The notes: generated by a model not told the origin, from the letters alone. 64,000 bases of DNA from Fimbriimonadia bacterium (GCA_039961735.1 JABRVX010000020.1:62001-126000), one strand, 5' to 3'. Positions 34,723 to 43,332 are shown, numbered from the stretch's first letter. A program made the numbers and translations.

Positions 34723-35400
34723 ATGCTGCTGGTCGAGGGTTTGCTCGACCTACTGTTTCCTCCGCGTTGCGGAGTCTGCGACGGCCTTCGACGCCCGATC
34801 TTCTGCGACGACTGCCGACAGCTGCTCGCACCCATCGTCGGTCCTGTGTGCCCGCGCTGTGGGCGGCCCGGCCGCCCCTGCGACCGCTGCCAGAATACAC
34901 CCGCTCCTTGCCGCTCGGCCTTCCATTACGACGGGGCGGCAGGCGCTGCCGTACGAAGGCTGAAATACGACCGCGTCTATGCGCTCGGCTCCGCTATCGG
35001 CGAGTTGCTCGCCGAATCCGTCCGGGCTTGGCCCGAGGTTGCCGATGTGGACGAGGTGCTACCGGTCCCAATCCACGTCTCTCGGCAGCGGGAGAGGACC
35101 TTCAACCAGGCCGAGCTGATTGCCAGACCAGTTGCAAGGGCCTTGAGACTGAGCTGCGCTACGGACGTGCTCATCCGTCACCGGCGAACTCCTCCGCAAG
35201 TGGGTCGCTCACGACAGGAGCGGCGGAGGAACATCGAGGGGGCTTTCCGAGTAGTCAACCGGGGTCGGGTGACCGGGCGGAGCTTCATGCTGGTGGACGA
35301 CGTGTACACGTCCGGCTACACTTTGCGGGAGTGTGCGGCGGAGCTGATGTCGGCAGGCGCGAGCCACGTCACGGCTATAACGGTGTGTAGGGAAGACTGA
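34723..35400 (+). CDS. comF: ComF-family phosphoribosyltransferase-like protein
   Basis: A 225-residue protein. The N-terminal zinc-binding part has CGVCDGLRRPIFCDDC and CPRCGRPGRPCDRC. The C-terminal phosphoribosyltransferase domain has LPVPIHVSRQRERTFNQAELIA, RRTPPQVGRSRQERRRNIEGAF and the PRPP-loop-like FMLVDDVYTSGYTL. ComF supports DNA uptake in competent bacteria; with comM at 20 kb it suggests some competence machinery. Starts immediately after the DUF1854 stop. Confidence 0.9.
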   Translation: MLLVEGLLDLLFPPRCGVCDGLRRPIFCDDCRQLLAPIVGPVCPRCGRPGRPCDRCQNTPAPCRSAFHYDGAAGAAVRRLKYDRVYALGSAIGELLAESVRAWPEVADVDEVLPVPIHVSRQRERTFNQAELIARPVARALRLSCATDVLIRHRRTPPQVGRSRQERRRNIEGAFRVVNRGRVTGRSFMLVDDVYTSGYTLRECAAELMSAGASHVTAITVCRED

Positions 35401-37656: not shown

Positions 37657-37685
37657 TTGCATTTCGTGAGAGAATGTGCTAACAT
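37657..37685 (+). promoter_or_regulatory. sigma-70-type promoter for the thiol/cysteine-rich locus
   Basis: TTGCAT, 17-bp spacer, TAACAT. It lies about 23 bp before the earliest start (GTG 37708), so the predicted transcript begins near 37692. It follows the GlmL stop by 48 bp, indicating that the locus is transcribed on its own. Confidence 0.5.
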
Positions 37686-37758
37686 AGGATCCGAGTGAGG
37701 ACGCGAGGTGATCGCGAAGCCACCATCCTCTTCTAAGGCCGCTGCCGGGGCTCTCTCC

Positions 37759-38632
37759 ATGCGGTGCCGGGTCCTGATCGCTCTGCTACCCGTCCTCGTT
37801 GCAGCAGCGGGTCTTCCGACAATAATAGCTTACTCACTCTCGGCTTCAGCGCAGACTGATGCGCTCGCTGCGCAGTACGACGCTTACTTCGTGACCGCCC
37901 CAAGCTGCCCCCAGTGCCGCGTGATGCTTGCCGACATCGTACGGACACCGGGGATCGAGGTGTGGGACTGGTCGAAGCCGGGATCGCGGGCCGCGTACAA
38001 CCGCCTTCGAGAGTTGCACGGGCTACCCCGCCTGACGAAGCCGATTGTACTGCCCCTCTTGGTGACCACCACGCCGGGAGGGCGCTACTGGGAGTGGACG
38101 GGGCCCGGGACATTGCCACGGCGCTATCAGTCATTGGCCGCTGGGACAGACCGCCGTTCCCCCACATGCAGTTGGCTGTGGTGCTCCTTGGCTTCGCGCT
38201 GGGAATGGCCTTCAGCACCCGCATCGGGGCGCAGCGGGCCCCCTCGTGCTGGGCATCGCGGCGGTCGCCGCAGCGGTCAAGATGAGCCTCACGTGCCCAT
38301 CGTGTGATGCTGCTGGAACCGCCGCTGCAACGGGGATGGCGATCGCGGCTTGCGGCATCGGTGCCGCTGCGGCGGGTGCAAGGGCGACAAGCCCGGTACG
38401 TCAACTAGTGGTGCCGTGCGTGCTCGCCGCGCTCTTGGCCGGCCAGTTCTTCCTGCTGATTAGCGACACGCGCGTCTGCTGGCCCTGCACGGCTTTCCTG
38501 TTCTTGGTGAGCCTTCTTGGGGGGGCCATGCCCGCAGCGGTGCGCGAGCTGAGTATGCCCCTGCCGAAACTTGCCGGGCCGCTCCCTGTCGGCGTGTTAG
38601 TGGGCGCGTCGCTCGCGGTCTGGGCGCCCTAG
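37759..38632 (+). pseudogene. membrane thiol oxidoreductase (VKOR-like), frame-broken
   Basis: Three successive frames together give a protein of about 290 residues. Frame one (from GTG 37708 or ATG 37759) has a signal/membrane helix (LIALLPVLVAAAGLPTIIAY) and a thioredoxin/glutaredoxin-like domain with SCPQC. After the G-run near 38100 the sense moves to a second frame (RDIATALSVIGRWD, then LAVVLLGFALGMAFSTRIG). After the G-run near 38225 it moves to a third (VLGIAAVAAAVKMSLTCPSC to TRVCWPCTAFLFLVSLLGG). Membrane helices with CPSC and CWPC pairs recall vitamin K epoxide reductase homologues, which oxidise thiol partners. Both shifts need one extra G. Either a decayed gene or sequence errors; the VKOR assignment is inference. 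Confidence 0.6.
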
Positions 38633-38656
38633 GCAGTAGCCACCGCGAGCGTTGCC

Positions 38657-39100
38657 ATGCAGACGGATCAGGGGCTTGTGCCAGTGGGCGCGCGCCCCCA
38701 GCAGCCGTCACTCCTCAGGGTCCCGACGAAGAGGTTCGTGCAATCAGTTGAGGCCGGCCCAACGGCAATCGCCAATCGAGTGTTTGTAATGGGGAAGCCA
38801 GCGTGCCCGCCGTGTGAGTCGGCGTACCGGATTCTCCGGGCCGCCTTCGGGCAGCGTGTGGCATTCGTGCGACCCAAAGAGGACTTGGGGATGTACTCAC
38901 GGATCTTCCCGCGTCCGGTGGAGACCGCGAGTACCCCGCTTCGGTACACCATCACCGTCAGTATGTCGCCTCTTCTCGTCGTCACGGATGCGGAGGGCAG
39001 GGTCGTCTGGCAACATTCATCCTGGCCCATCGAGGACGCCGACGCTGAGGCCATATTGCGGCAGGTGGAAGGAGTGTTGGAAACCGGAGGAGAGAGATGA
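38657..39100 (+). CDS. thioredoxin-like protein with CPPC motif
   Basis: A 147-residue protein with a thioredoxin-type active site (RVFVMGKPACPPCESAYRILRAAFG, CPPC at about 50-53) and a later strand SMSPLLVVTDAEGRVVWQH holding a cis-Pro-like position. It has no signal peptide of its own and no Shine-Dalgarno. It is in the same frame as the end of the preceding VKOR-like gene, separated by one TAG; the residues between (AVATASVA) prolong a hydrophobic segment. It may therefore be the C-terminal thioredoxin domain of a VKOR-thioredoxin fusion. Its stop overlaps the next start. Confidence 0.72.
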   Translation: MQTDQGLVPVGARPQQPSLLRVPTKRFVQSVEAGPTAIANRVFVMGKPACPPCESAYRILRAAFGQRVAFVRPKEDLGMYSRIFPRPVETASTPLRYTITVSMSPLLVVTDAEGRVVWQHSSWPIEDADAEAILRQVEGVLETGGER

Positions 39101-39471
39101 GAAGGACATCGCTTTGGAGAGGAGCCGCGCTGGTGGCGGCCCTGGGGGCCGTGGGTTGGATCGCCGTAACGGGGGCGGTGCCATGCGGGCCGGGAGAGTC
39201 CTGGATAAGGTATTGGCGGCCGATCACGGCCTGCTACGACTGGCCCGGGCACTACTGCAATCCTATCAGTTGGAACTACGGATACGCGTGGGGCTGCTGG
39301 CTTTACTGCTGCTACGATCCATACACAGGCGCATTGCTCGGCAAGCATATGGCAGACTGCTACCCCGATCCGTGCGTGCTGAACGGCGGCTGCTGCAACT
39401 TCACCATCTCGTGTGAGGAGGCCCGAGCCAACGACCTGCAGAACTTCGTCTGCCCGGTCTGGGTGCCATGA
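39097..39471 (+). CDS. secreted 12-cysteine, tryptophan-rich small protein
   Basis: A 124-residue protein with a strong GGAGGAGAG ribosome site and an ATGA overlap with the preceding thioredoxin-like gene. Residues 1-28 form a signal peptide or anchor (RGAALVAALGAVGWIAVTGAV). The mature part has 12 Cys (30, 46, 54, 67, 71, 72, 88, 93, 99, 100, 106, 119) and seven of the nine Trp, in motifs such as YAWGCWLYCCYD and CVLNGGCC. An even number of Cys in an exported protein next to thiol oxidoreductases suggests six disulfides. I do not recognise the family. Methylamine dehydrogenase light chain also has 12 Cys and needs dedicated redox helpers, but no sequence match to it is evident. Confidence 0.75.
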   Translation: MRRTSLWRGAALVAALGAVGWIAVTGAVPCGPGESWIRYWRPITACYDWPGHYCNPISWNYGYAWGCWLYCCYDPYTGALLGKHMADCYPDPCVLNGGCCNFTISCEEARANDLQNFVCPVWVP

Positions 39472-40201
39472 CGGTTAGGCGAAAGCAACGGGATCTCCAC
39501 CGCCAAGGAGGCAGTGGCGCAGCCGCAGCGACTGGCCCTCACGGTGCCCACGCCGGTGTACGTGCGCCGCCGCTGCGGGCACAGCGCCGGTGGCGTCGCG
39601 GCTTCACTCTTATCGAACTGCTGATGGTGGTCGCGGTGGTAGGGGTCGTGTTGGGGCTGGTCTACCCCGTCGTGCTGCAGGCGCGACGGCAGTCACTGCG
39701 CGCGTCCTGTACGACGAACCTGCGCAATCTCTACGTCGCGCTTCAAGCCTACTGCGATGATCACGGCGGCTGGCGCAATGCGCCGCGGTATCTGTCGGCC
39801 ATCGAGCCGTACGCAAAGGACATGAGGGTAATGCATTGCGGTGCAGACCCGAGACCGACCACCGGGACTCGGTTCCCACTCATCATCGGCTGCCCGTGGG
39901 ATGTGCCGCCCTACGTGCGCTATCCCGTGAGCTACCACTACATTCGCCACTTCGAGCCCTGGGACGGCGCCTACCACTGGCGCTGGATCCTGGCGCGAGC
40001 CCCGCGCCTCGGGATCCTCGCCTGCCCATGGCACGGGTACAAGTGCAGGAATCAGACGACGCTCGTGCCGTTTGGCAGGTATTGCGGCTCCAGATAGATG
40101 GATCGGTGGCAAGCATGCGCGGGCTGGACGAAGGGGACCCATGGGCCTTCACGTTCTGCGATAACTACACGTATTTCATCGAGGGAGCGAGTGGGAGGTA
40201 G
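39468..40201 (+). pseudogene. type II/IV pseudopilin with 45-residue leader, frame-broken near its end
   Basis: The N-terminus [26 protein letters not shown] is a class III prepilin signal with cleavage after Gly45; the preceding basic leader is exceptionally long. The body has at least seven Cys, unusual for pseudopilins (CTTNLRNLYVALQAYC, MHCGAD, CPWHGYKC). The first frame ends at 40097, but the plus-two frame continues with VLRLQIDGSVASMRGLDEGDPWAFTFCDNYTYFIEG to 40201, the expected end of an H-X9-DG-type pilin. One G missing in the TTTGGCAGG near 40070 would explain it. The start overlaps the cysteine-rich gene (ATGA), so it is coupled. Confidence 0.65.
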
Positions 40202-40205
40202 GACG

Positions 40206-40646
40206 ATGGGGAAGTGGCTGGCTTGGTTCGGCATGGTTGCGGGCATCTGGTTCGCTTCGGGCTTCCTCTCCGGGCTTGTATGGGTATCGATCGGCGTGGG
40301 CACGCGCGTGTACAGCCAGGGGGTGGCAGTGAGCGCGCTGGTTTCTGGCGGGCTTGGGCTGCTTGTTCTCGGGCCACTTTGGCATCTGAGTCGTCGCCAG
40401 CCTGGCATCAGCATCACCCTTTGTGCGGTAACCGCAGCAGCGCTCATGAATGGCTTCCGAATGCTGCTTGGGTATCAATCCCACGGGATCCTGACGTACA
40501 ATACGCTGTTCGACGCCGCCGTTCCACTTCTCATCGGGGGTAGCAGTGCAGCCCTGTGCTGGGTGGGATACTGGTATCTGGACCTCGGCGTGGGTGAGCG
40601 CAAGGGGCAGGTCTCCACGTCCCACCCAGGAGAGCGCCTGGGGTGA
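40206..40646 (+). CDS. four-helix membrane protein
   Basis: A 146-residue integral membrane protein. Hydrophobic segments at about 3-28, 35-57, 67-88 and 98-122 (WLAWFGMVAGIWFASGFLSGLVW; LVSGGLGLLVLGPLWHL; ITLCAVTAAALMNGFRMLL; LLIGGSSAALCWVGYWYL). GGGAGG lies 8 bp before the ATG, inside the end of the pilin frame. Family not recognised. As the last gene of the locus it could anchor or transport the cysteine-rich protein or pilin; that is inference from position only. Confidence 0.65.
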   Translation: MGKWLAWFGMVAGIWFASGFLSGLVWVSIGVGTRVYSQGVAVSALVSGGLGLLVLGPLWHLSRRQPGISITLCAVTAAALMNGFRMLLGYQSHGILTYNTLFDAAVPLLIGGSSAALCWVGYWYLDLGVGERKGQVSTSHPGERLG

Positions 40647-40702: not shown

Positions 40703-41749
40703 TCAGGCGACCGAGGGCAGGCTGCGGAACCAGCGGCGCTGGAACCATAGCGAGACGTTGACGAGCGAGATCAGCACCGGGACCTCCACCAAGGGACCGA
40801 TTACTGCTGCGAACGCCGCTCCGCTCTTGATACCGAATACTGCCACTGCAACTGCGATGGCGAGCTCGAAGTTGTTGCTAGCAGCGGTGAACGAGATTGT
40901 CGCGGTTCTGGAGTAGTCGGCACCCAAGCTCTTTCCGATCCAAAAAGAGACCAGAAACATCAGAACGAAGTAGAAGAGCAGAGGCACCGCGATCCGTAGC
41001 ACGTCGAGTGGAAGCTGCACGATCACTTCACCCTTTAGCGAGAACATGACGACGATGGTGAACAGCAACGCGATGAGGGTGATGGGCGAGATCACCGGGA
41101 TGAACCTCTTCTCATACCACTCACGCCCTTTCGCCCGCACCAGGGTGAAGCGTGTTAGCATACCAGCGATGAACGGGATGCCGAGGTAGATGAACACACT
41201 CTCTGCGATCTGGCCTATGCTTATCTGGACGATGCTACCCCTCATGCCGAACACCGGCGGTAGCAGCGTGATGAATACGTAGGCGTACACCGAGAAGAAG
41301 AACACCTGAAAGATCGAGTTGAATGCCACGAGCCCCGCAGCGTACTCGGTGTCACCCTTTGCGAGGTCGTTCCACACGATTACCATCGCGATGCAGCGTG
41401 CCAAACCTATCATGATCAAACCGACCATGTATTCCGGGTAGCCCGCGAGGAATAGCAGTGCCAACGCGAACATGAGCACCGGCCCGATCACCCAGTTGAG
41501 GAGCAGCGAGATGCCAAGGATGCGAAAGTCGCGGAACACACTCGGCAACTCCTCGTACCGCACCTTGGCGAGCGGCGGGTACATCATCAGGATCAGCCCT
41601 ACCGCAATCGGGATGGACGTGGTCCCCACCTGAAAGCGGGTACTCAGTTGCGCCACGGCGGGCCAGAAGTGACCGAGCCCTACCCCGAACGCCATGCCCA
41701 GGAATATCCACAACGTGAGGTAGCGGTCTAGCAGGCTCAGCCGTCGCAT
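40703..41749 (-). CDS. acr3: arsenite efflux permease Acr3
   Basis: A 348-residue, ten-helix transporter of the ACR3 (BART superfamily) type that exports As(OH)3. The N-terminus [26 protein letters not shown], the [16 protein letters not shown] segment with the essential Cys, and the [21 protein letters not shown] motif are diagnostic. It is the last gene of arsR-arsM-arsC-acr3 and overlaps arsC by 13 bp. Confidence 0.95.
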
Positions 41750-42144
41750 CGTCTCAACTCCTCCACCAACTGCTCGACTCGGGCACGTACTTCGTCCCGT
41801 ATTCTTCGCACCTCTTCAATCGGCCGTCCCTTGGGGTCGTCCAACCCCCAGTCCTCGCACTCCATGCGAAGTGCCGGGCAGGACTCCGCGTCCACCCCGC
41901 ATCCCATTGTGATCACCCTATCGGCCGCCTGTGCCATCTCGGGTGTCAGCAGCTTGGGTGTATGCCCCGACATGTCGTATCCGACCTCTGCCATCGCCTC
42001 CACCACCATCGGATTGAGCGTTGCTCCACCCTCGGTGCCAGCCGACTCCGCGATCGCGACATCCGCACCCAACCGCCTGAGAAATGCCTCGGCCATCTGG
42101 CTGCGCCCGGCGTTGTGTACGCATACGAATAGCACCCGCTTCAT
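41737..42144 (-). CDS. arsC: arsenate reductase, low-molecular-weight phosphatase type
   Basis: A 135-residue reductase of the thioredoxin-coupled LMW-PTPase class. The P-loop VCVHNAGRS contains the nucleophile Cys8 and Arg14. Later Cys ([26 protein letters not shown]) form the relay disulfide, and DDPKG contains the general acid. It reduces arsenate to arsenite for export by Acr3. Its ATG overlaps the arsM stop (ATGA). Confidence 0.95.
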
Positions 42145-42977
42145 GCGTGCGGCTTCCTCGCGCGGATGAACGCTGCCATGATACCTCCGTCCAGTCGCAG
42201 TCTCTCCTCGGTATCCAACAGACCAAGGGCCCCCGGTTTCAGACCCACTGACTCCGCGTCGGCAAACGTGTAGCGGCGCGTCGGCTCCACACTCACTTCG
42301 ATAAAGCCTGCCGCCTCCAGCCTCCGCACGTAGTCGGTCCGTTCCAGTGCCCCCGCGATGCACCCGACGAACAACTCCATGTCCTTTCGCACCGCCTCTG
42401 GCAGTTCGCCCTCCACTACCACGTCCGACACGGCGAAGCGTCCGCCCGGGCGCAGCACGCGAAAGGCTTCTGCGAACACTCGGTCCTTGTCCGCCGATAG
42501 GTTGATCACGCAGTTCGAGATGATCACGTCTACGCTATCGTCTGGGAGCGGGATGGCCTCGATGTGTCCCTTCAAGAACCGAACATTCTCGAGGCCGGCA
42601 GCTTCCCGATTGCGCTCGGCCAGATCCAGCATCTCGTCCGTCATGTCTAGGCCGTAAGCAAACCCGGACGGTCCCACGCGCTTGGCGGACAGCAGTACGT
42701 CAATTCCGCCGCCACTCCCTAGGTCCAGGACCGTTTCTCCTTCTCTGAGTTCTGCCAATGCGGTCGGGTTACCACAGCCCAACGACGCCAGCACGGCCTG
42801 CTCCGGCAGCGTTTCAGTCTCCATACGGCTGTAAAGATCCGCCGTTATTGGATCGCAGCCTCCCGAGCCGCAGCAACTGCCCTTCTCGCCCGAGATCACG
42901 TGCAAGGCTGCCCCCGCGTATCTCTCTCGTACGGCCTGCTCTATCTGCTCGGACCGGTCGTTCTCATCTGCCATCAC
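42141..42977 (-). CDS. arsM: arsenite S-adenosylmethionine methyltransferase ArsM
   Basis: A 278-residue methyltransferase. The N-terminal Cys cluster (GSCCGSGGC, C35, C36, C41), the SAM site VLDLGSGGGIDVLLSAKRVG, and the catalytic Cys in ISNCVINL and VGCIAGAL follow the ArsM layout. It methylates arsenite to less retained, volatile species. ArsM together with Acr3 gives two detoxification routes. The start overlaps arsR by about 14 bp. Confidence 0.93.
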   Translation of the reverse strand: MMADENDRSEQIEQAVRERYAGAALHVISGEKGSCCGSGGCDPITADLYSRMETETLPEQAVLASLGCGNPTALAELREGETVLDLGSGGGIDVLLSAKRVGPSGFAYGLDMTDEMLDLAERNREAAGLENVRFLKGHIEAIPLPDDSVDVIISNCVINLSADKDRVFAEAFRVLRPGGRFAVSDVVVEGELPEAVRKDMELFVGCIAGALERTDYVRRLEAAGFIEVSVEPTRRYTFADAESVGLKPGALGLLDTEERLRLDGGIMAAFIRARKPHA

Positions 42978-43332
42978 TCGTCGCTCCTTCCTCGACGCAA
43001 CACTCCTCGGCGGCCTCCACGAAGTTTGCTAGTGCTCGAACTGCCTCCGGGTTGACAGAACAGATCAGGTGTCGGCCCTGCCTGGTGACGTCAATCAGGC
43101 CCGACGTGCGTAGCTCCTTCAGGTGAAAGGAGACGGCCGAAGACACCCGCTCCTCGCCGGTGACGTGGCAGCACACCTCGCCCACAGTCTGGCCGTGCAC
43201 GCGGCGGACATCGCCGGAATCGTCCATGGCCACGGGACGGCAGACGTCCCGCAGGAAGCAGAAGATCCGAAGCCGCGTCGGTTCGCCCAGCGCCTTGAAG
43301 TATCTTGCGAGCTTGATTTGGTCCGGTGTCAT
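42964..43332 (-). CDS. arsR: ArsR-family arsenic-responsive repressor
   Basis: A 122-residue winged-helix repressor. ARYFKALGEPTRLRIFCFLRD is the typical ArsR N-terminal helix; SSAVSFHLKELRTSGLIDVTRQGRHLIC is the DNA-recognition and wing region. The vicinal pair C54-C55 (GEVCCHVTG), with a C-terminal EECCVEEG, offers thiols for As(III). First gene of the operon, which it should repress until arsenite binds. Confidence 0.93.
   Translation of the reverse strand: MTPDQIKLARYFKALGEPTRLRIFCFLRDVCRPVAMDDSGDVRRVHGQTVGEVCCHVTGEERVSSAVSFHLKELRTSGLIDVTRQGRHLICSVNPEAVRALANFVEAAEECCVEEGATSDGR

Follow-up and report, generated by a model that had tools for sequence, protein, structure and literature searches.

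A predicted four-gene cassette of Armatimonadota that joins a VKOR-like thiol oxidoreductase to a Cys-rich exported protein and a prepilin

The closest described relatives of the locus analysed here, which lies at 37.7-40.65 kb of a 64,000-nucleotide stretch of DNA (the window) from the 3.2 Mb draft genome of a Fimbriimonadia bacterium (JABRVX010000020.1:62001-126000; genome G000 below), each share a part of it. The Synechococcus VKOR fused to thioredoxin (Trx; VKOR-Trx, 3kp9) resembles the predicted enzyme in its membrane helix bundle with two Cys pairs, a CxxC at the start of a late helix and an additional helix that runs on to the C-terminal Trx domain. The enzyme of our locus differs from it in having CxxC rather than C-x7-C as the loop pair, no conserved signature Ser and an extra N-terminal Trx-like domain, and it lies below Pfam VKOR detection and is dedicated to a small-gene cassette. 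The housekeeping VKOR of Armatimonadota, fused to a Trx-fold (DsbA-like) domain, comes from the same phylum and has the same general architecture, but it stands outside the cassette and belongs to a clearly separate family. MauD and MauE are dedicated thiol helpers for the Cys-rich exported light chain of methylamine dehydrogenase (MauA); in our locus, too, thiol helpers adjoin a Cys-rich exported protein, but there is no match to MauE or MauA, Trp is not conserved and a pilin replaces the dehydrogenase. Type IV and type II prepilins (TIGR02532, GspG, Verru_Chthon cassette pilins) share their N-terminal prepilin motif with the pilin of the locus, which differs from them in staying under the specific-model cut-offs and in having its own C-terminal domain. 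Bacteriocin and contact-toxin operons carry membrane immunity proteins, and resemble the locus in their small fast-evolving secreted protein, their small membrane protein and their orphan retention; the differences are that no sequence match links the two and that our locus has a dedicated oxidase and a pilin.

On balance, with a little more than even confidence, we read the locus as a degraded member of a mobile-looking four-gene cassette of Armatimonadota, which would serve the dedicated oxidative folding of a small exported protein and then its handling by a pilin. The cassette consists, in this order, of genes for a VKOR-Trx-like enzyme, a Cys-rich protein, a prepilin and a small membrane protein. 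In agreement with an earlier model-made reading of the same DNA (the first-pass annotation), we found no description of this combination in the open-licence literature, and no named family or system in the curated libraries fits it. The newness lies in the gene combination and not in a demonstrated new chemistry, and the system may exist under another description outside Armatimonadota, the phylum that our profile searches covered.

These searches were carried out on 291 Armatimonadota genomes. Used as a single sequence, the Cys-rich protein of the window recovered two true relatives in the phylum (E 3.6e-6 and 8.4e-4) amid many chance matches, no match in the contigs of its own genome, and only itself among 60 relatives. 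Both true relatives lie in the same four-gene order, with the VKOR-Trx there being one protein of 430 aa. A profile of three Cys-rich sequences then matched in seven genomes, every one with a cassette or a remnant of it, and the enlarged profile in 13; a VKOR-Trx profile matched in 15 genomes and, in a second search, in 18, with two weak matches also in G278 and G286; and a profile of the pilin globular domain matched in 27. As separate searches with each component recover the same set elsewhere, the co-occurrence of these genes is more than chance. The first-pass annotation had proposed to look for a conserved block in related genomes, and such a block exists: every match to the Cys-rich profile in the phylum adjoins a thiol oxidoreductase and/or a pilin, or sits at a contig end, although the five genes it had counted are four in intact relatives. 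The later Cys-rich profile was built partly from neighbours of VKOR-Trx genes, and the rows concerned do not count as independent evidence for the linkage; what does count comprises the first seven Cys-rich matches, G059, which came from the Cys-rich profile, and G145, which came from the pilin profile.

By our tally, the VKOR-Trx, the Cys-rich protein, both of them or remnants of either are present at 25 loci in 18 genomes. Complete cassettes number twelve (G033:C19, G039:C3, G068, G101, G111, two in G132, G133, two in G139, G140:C97 and G145), counting the one in G101, split by a contig break, and the one in G145, where the small membrane protein and the pilin share one frame; the others are broken, partial or at contig ends. 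Neighbouring pilins in G033:C13 and G130:C19 (35 kb) were considered and rejected as cassettes. The flanking genes differ between loci, being for example lon and ABC transporter genes in G111, groES/groEL at the G039:C6 variant and a MutL gene upstream in the window, which marks a cassette rather than a frozen neighbourhood. Three genomes of one genus (G109, G110, G111) have the cassette at a common site, two of the three copies being decayed. The VKOR-Trx tree is deep and weakly supported, with only the G111/G068/G101/G140a group distinct (90/94), a grouping that would fit either transfer or an old paralogue. Plasmids searched by tblastn gave no match.

The window copy lies on the + strand (37708-40646) and its parts are as follows.

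37708..38100, +: VKOR-Trx, N-terminal part, with a membrane anchor and a Trx-like domain with CPQC; frame 1 of 3
38100..38235, +: VKOR-Trx, second-frame part, with the first transmembrane helix, placed by in-order alignment with relatives
38237..38632, +: VKOR-like membrane part in the third frame; its loop pair is CPSC, and CWPC stands where a late helix starts; ended by an in-frame TAG
38657..39100, +: C-terminal Trx/glutaredoxin-like domain with CPPC, in the frame of the preceding part; fused to the VKOR-like part in intact relatives
39097..39471, +: Cys-rich exported protein, 124 aa, 12 Cys, C-x3-CC spacing class; intact open reading frame (ORF)
39468..40201, +: cassette-specific prepilin with N-methylation motif; coding signal shifts frame at ~40020-40090
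40206..40646, +: small multi-helix membrane protein, 146 aa; intact ORF

Coding-frame analysis follows the VKOR-like coding signal through three frames (37708-~38100, ~38100-38235 and ~38237-38632), with the breaks on both sides of the middle part sitting in G/C-rich runs, up to the TAG (38630-38632), beyond which the CPPC domain resumes in the same frame; taken as an ORF of its own, this domain has no signal peptide. The VKOR-Trx gene thus contains two frame shifts and one in-frame stop, and the pilin gene one shift, its C-terminus (...VLRLQIDGSV...), revealed by a paralogue in the same genome, being read in another frame to 40201. The five tightly packed + strand frames of the first-pass annotation are there, with ATGA overlaps at two junctions (39097 and 39468), but some of its boundaries are artefacts of the frame breaks. 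The frame it took for a separate CPPC thioredoxin is, in all intact relatives, part of the same gene as the VKOR-like part; the pilin ends at 40201 and not at 40097; and the hydrophobic small membrane protein starts at 40206 and not at 40098.

With frame breaks in the genes of both the enzyme and the pilin, the window copy probably does not function, and the active locus assumed at first is not supported. It is conceivable, although we give it clearly the smaller share of our confidence, that the copy is active and that errors of assembly, or recoding, account for its frame changes. The coding signal persists across every break, and the ORFs of the Cys-rich and small membrane proteins are intact. 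Moreover, the five frame changes in G000, counted over the window and a second cassette (C8), all go in the same direction and all fall in G/C-rich sequence, so assembly error is a possible source of them. Real decay is favoured by the in-frame stop between VKOR and Trx, which is not an indel, and by the deletion carried by a third copy (C59), a clear remnant. Furthermore, the coding-frame analysis found no comparable cluster of breaks in the flanking genes of the window, and decayed copies occur in unrelated genomes as well (G099, G109, G110). All three G000 copies have a damaged VKOR-Trx. In C8 (L066 3296-6900, - strand) the enzyme gene is broken twice, while the genes of a 12-Cys protein, the small membrane protein and the pilin are open. 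C59 (L132 3457-5200, - strand), the remnant closest to the window copy, has a broken N-terminal Trx (CPEC) and VKOR piece and lacks the Cys-rich gene, and its pilin and small membrane protein genes are open.

In intact relatives the VKOR-like part and the C-terminal Trx form a single protein. An alignment of 13 sequences keeps invariant a CxxC after an early helix, a PKxCxxC at the late helix (C259/C262, at the start of the last core helix) and, in the C-terminal domain, a CxxC with a cis-Pro. The latter two features are those of a Trx/glutaredoxin fold, and a comparison of this domain with PDB sequences found a glutaredoxin (E 1.4e-5). A structure model built from 21 sequences (predicted local distance difference test score, pLDDT, 80), which superseded a too poor one from three sequences (pLDDT 56), predicts, after an N-terminal anchor, a Trx-like domain followed by six helices and, at the C-terminus, a Trx domain. 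The motifs CPQC, CPSC and CWPC, which the first-pass annotation had assigned to one VKOR-like protein, are all present in the window, but CPQC belongs to the separate N-terminal Trx-like domain (beta-alpha-beta-alpha-beta-beta-alpha in the model of a relative). The CxxC of this domain occurs in the G000 copies only (window, C8 and C59) and is absent from the other relatives aligned, and the domain itself is missing or separated in several loci. In the structure comparison against PDB, Synechococcus VKOR-Trx ranked 11th over 297 aligned columns (E 0.025, a weak match), the sole membrane protein among the 50 best matches, of which the top ones were mostly single Trx folds.

The Pfam VKOR model PF07884 matches neither the cassette enzyme (sets of 3 and of 13 members) nor the window pieces, and hits a different gene of G000. 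The VKOR signature is defined by the spacing of the loop pair Cys43/Cys51 and by Ser57 (PMC4555120); all members of the cassette enzyme that reach this region have CxxC as the loop pair, and no conserved Ser or Thr stands at the expected place. We infer that the enzyme acts like VKOR-Trx, yet we do not file it as VKOR, given the absent Pfam call, the signature spacing and Ser that are not kept, and an alignment with the ordinary VKORs of the phylum that spans 40 columns only. Since 40 of 41 related genomes already possess a canonical VKOR with a Trx-fold fusion, usually as a single gene and otherwise in low copy number, the cassette enzyme is an additional, specialised one. It evolves under purifying selection, with a ratio of nonsynonymous to synonymous substitution rates (dN/dS) of 0.11.

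The Cys-rich family consists of proteins of 92-135 aa with a signal peptide; the one in the window, with 124 aa, 12 Cys and 9 Trp, is as the first-pass annotation had described it. The columns that are invariant (eight among 13 sequences, six among 17) are all Cys, and past the signal (after residue 25) the number of Cys is even, 10 or 12, in 13 of 16 proteins. Three spacing classes can be told apart: one has 10 Cys and a CC, another has 10 Cys with WxCNG and ends in CPCP, and the third, the C-x3-CC class, counts 12 Cys in the proteins of the window and of C8, the extra pair having been gained as a class. Most relatives have 10 Cys, and Trp, which numbers from 0 to 9, is not conserved. No match to the Cys-rich protein was found in Pfam, NCBIfam, PADLOC or PDB sequences. 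It is the fastest-evolving part of the cassette (dN/dS 0.37 or saturated), with only 26% identity between the window and C8 proteins of the same genome, and such divergence suggests a variable biotic partner.

The pilin was correctly recognised at first by its prepilin motif, GFTLIEL (PF07963, 4.5e-07; TIGR02532, 3.1e-08, above cut-off). It lies below the cut-offs of every specific pilin model, including that of GspG (NCBIfam TIGR01710, 35 bits against a cut-off of 88.85). In a comparison over 12 genomes, the pilins of intact cassettes gave full-length matches (E 1e-23 to 1e-59), whereas the other pilins matched mostly by the N-terminus only; the frame-broken window pilin scores 1.6e-10. Judged by these matches, the cassette pilin is a distinct subfamily with its own C-terminal domain, found only in this system, and it has its own conserved Cys pairs (PTCD..WR.SC) and, like the enzyme, evolves under purifying selection (dN/dS 0.12-0.13). 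The small membrane protein (dN/dS 0.29; 33% identity between the window and C59 copies) has no name in Pfam, NCBIfam or PADLOC. In G145 (L158 2913-4013) it shares one open frame with the pilin, and in G130 (L128 4346-5365) the VKOR-like part is fused to the Cys-rich domain, with the Trx missing and a doubtful topology. Taken together, these fusions suggest that the cassette falls into two functional pairs, one of enzyme and substrate and one of pilin and membrane partner, although the G130 one could be a deletion product.

In the mechanism that we propose, the small Cys-rich protein would be exported by a Sec-type signal peptide, as read from its sequence. The VKOR-like helix bundle with its two CxxC pairs, together with the periplasmic Trx/glutaredoxin-like domain, would then introduce five to six disulfides into it, and the architecture and linkage suggest that the two CxxC pairs would relay electrons received from Trx, presumably on to quinone. 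The prepilin and its membrane partner would finally export the folded mini-protein through, or display it on, a type IV/type II-like filament, where it may meet an external target. The conserved linkage makes a dedicated oxidation system for a disulfide-rich protein, as predicted in the first-pass annotation, well supported. Conserved redox motifs, an exported Cys-rich substrate candidate and purifying selection are shown too. Display on a pilus-like structure is possible, and export or killing would be alternative outcomes. A thiol oxidase that stays together with a single substrate and a pilin would amount to a self-contained pathway, in which dedicated oxidative folding, and the encounter of disulfide-rich folded cargo with type IV-like filaments, could be followed cleanly. 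With the cassette, a phylum of which few members are in culture gains two protein families so far without a name and a VKOR-like family that existing models do not cover. Should the Cys-rich proteins prove to be toxins or binders, they would offer a new source of natural disulfide-stabilised scaffolds.

Several findings weigh against this reading. The sequence homology of the enzyme to the ordinary VKORs is weak (hhalign probability 71 over the 40 columns), and so is its fold match to VKOR-Trx. As pairs of pilin and small membrane protein occur alone at nine loci (L150-L157, L159), with neither enzyme nor Cys-rich protein, the link of the pilin to the Cys-rich protein may be indirect. In the G039:C6 variant (L134 3832-5454), an unrelated-looking exported protein with 9 Cys adjoins the pilin pair with no oxidase beside it.

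For the final role, the strongest rival is antagonism with immunity-like retention of the pilin and membrane pair. The Cys-rich protein would be a disulfide-knotted antibacterial toxin matured by the VKOR-Trx, and the small membrane protein, perhaps with the pilin, would give immunity or receptor-side protection; we regard this as rather unlikely. It would agree with the fast evolution of the Cys-rich protein compared with the enzyme and the pilin (0.11-0.13) and the small membrane protein. The small membrane protein and pilin genes are open where the Cys-rich one was lost (the G109 and C59 remnants and the nine orphan pairs), and G111 has a lone paralogue of the small membrane protein (L022 4449-4895) ~3.3 kb from the cassette's own copy. 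The patchy distribution, the several variants per genome and the frequent decay point the same way. However, some cassettes with an intact Cys-rich ORF (G140:C129, G059) have no adjacent small membrane protein, the orphan pattern is explained equally well if the pilin pair is the core and its cargo is optional, and the fusion in G145 links the small membrane protein to the pilin and not to the Cys-rich protein. PADLOC, a defence library and as such a weak test, matched 0 of 10 proteins. A broader version, a new kind of bacterial antagonism or surface display, can be put forward tentatively: hypervariable disulfide-knotted mini-proteins would have a VKOR-like/Trx enzyme of their own to oxidise them and a pilin of their own, with its membrane partner, to deliver or display them, and strains would keep orphan pairs as protection.

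We consider it unlikely that the Cys-rich protein serves on a pilus for adhesion or binding, as a rigid tip or as a subunit that decorates the filament, together with a cognate pilin. Its strict pairing with one pilin subfamily, the pilins' own Cys pairs and a variable sequence on a constant scaffold would suit such a role, but pilin pairs exist without it and no adhesin-like or binding fold was recognised in it. Even less probable, to the point of being improbable outright, is the reverse direction, namely a CcdA/DsbD-like reduction that keeps metal-binding thiols of the Cys-rich protein reduced: reducing Trx folds (CcmG/DsbE) did rank first in the structure search with the Trx parts, yet the helix order and CxxC positions follow VKOR-Trx, the paired and mostly even Cys suit disulfides, and no CxxCH haem motif was seen in the family alignment. 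A maturation like that of methylamine dehydrogenase, with its 12-Cys light chain and Trp-derived cofactor, was suggested at first by the 12 Cys and 9 Trp of the window protein and the adjoining thiol helpers, but it can be dismissed, as most relatives have 10 Cys, Pfam gives no match to MauE or the light chain, and one member has no Trp at all, so that a Trp-derived cofactor cannot be a property of the family.

The locus had also been called promoter-led, but a promoter and terminator scan found no sigma-70-like site and no terminator over threshold in it. Upstream of the window cassette lie a double-zinc-ribbon phosphoribosyltransferase gene (34723-35400) and the gene of the MutL-family protein (PF13941; 35645-37609). 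Directly downstream, on the - strand (40703-43332), is an arsenic-type gene cluster, identified by reading the translations, which encodes an ACR3-like transporter, an arsenate reductase-like protein, an ArsM-like methyltransferase with a Cys-rich N-terminus and an ArsR-like regulator.

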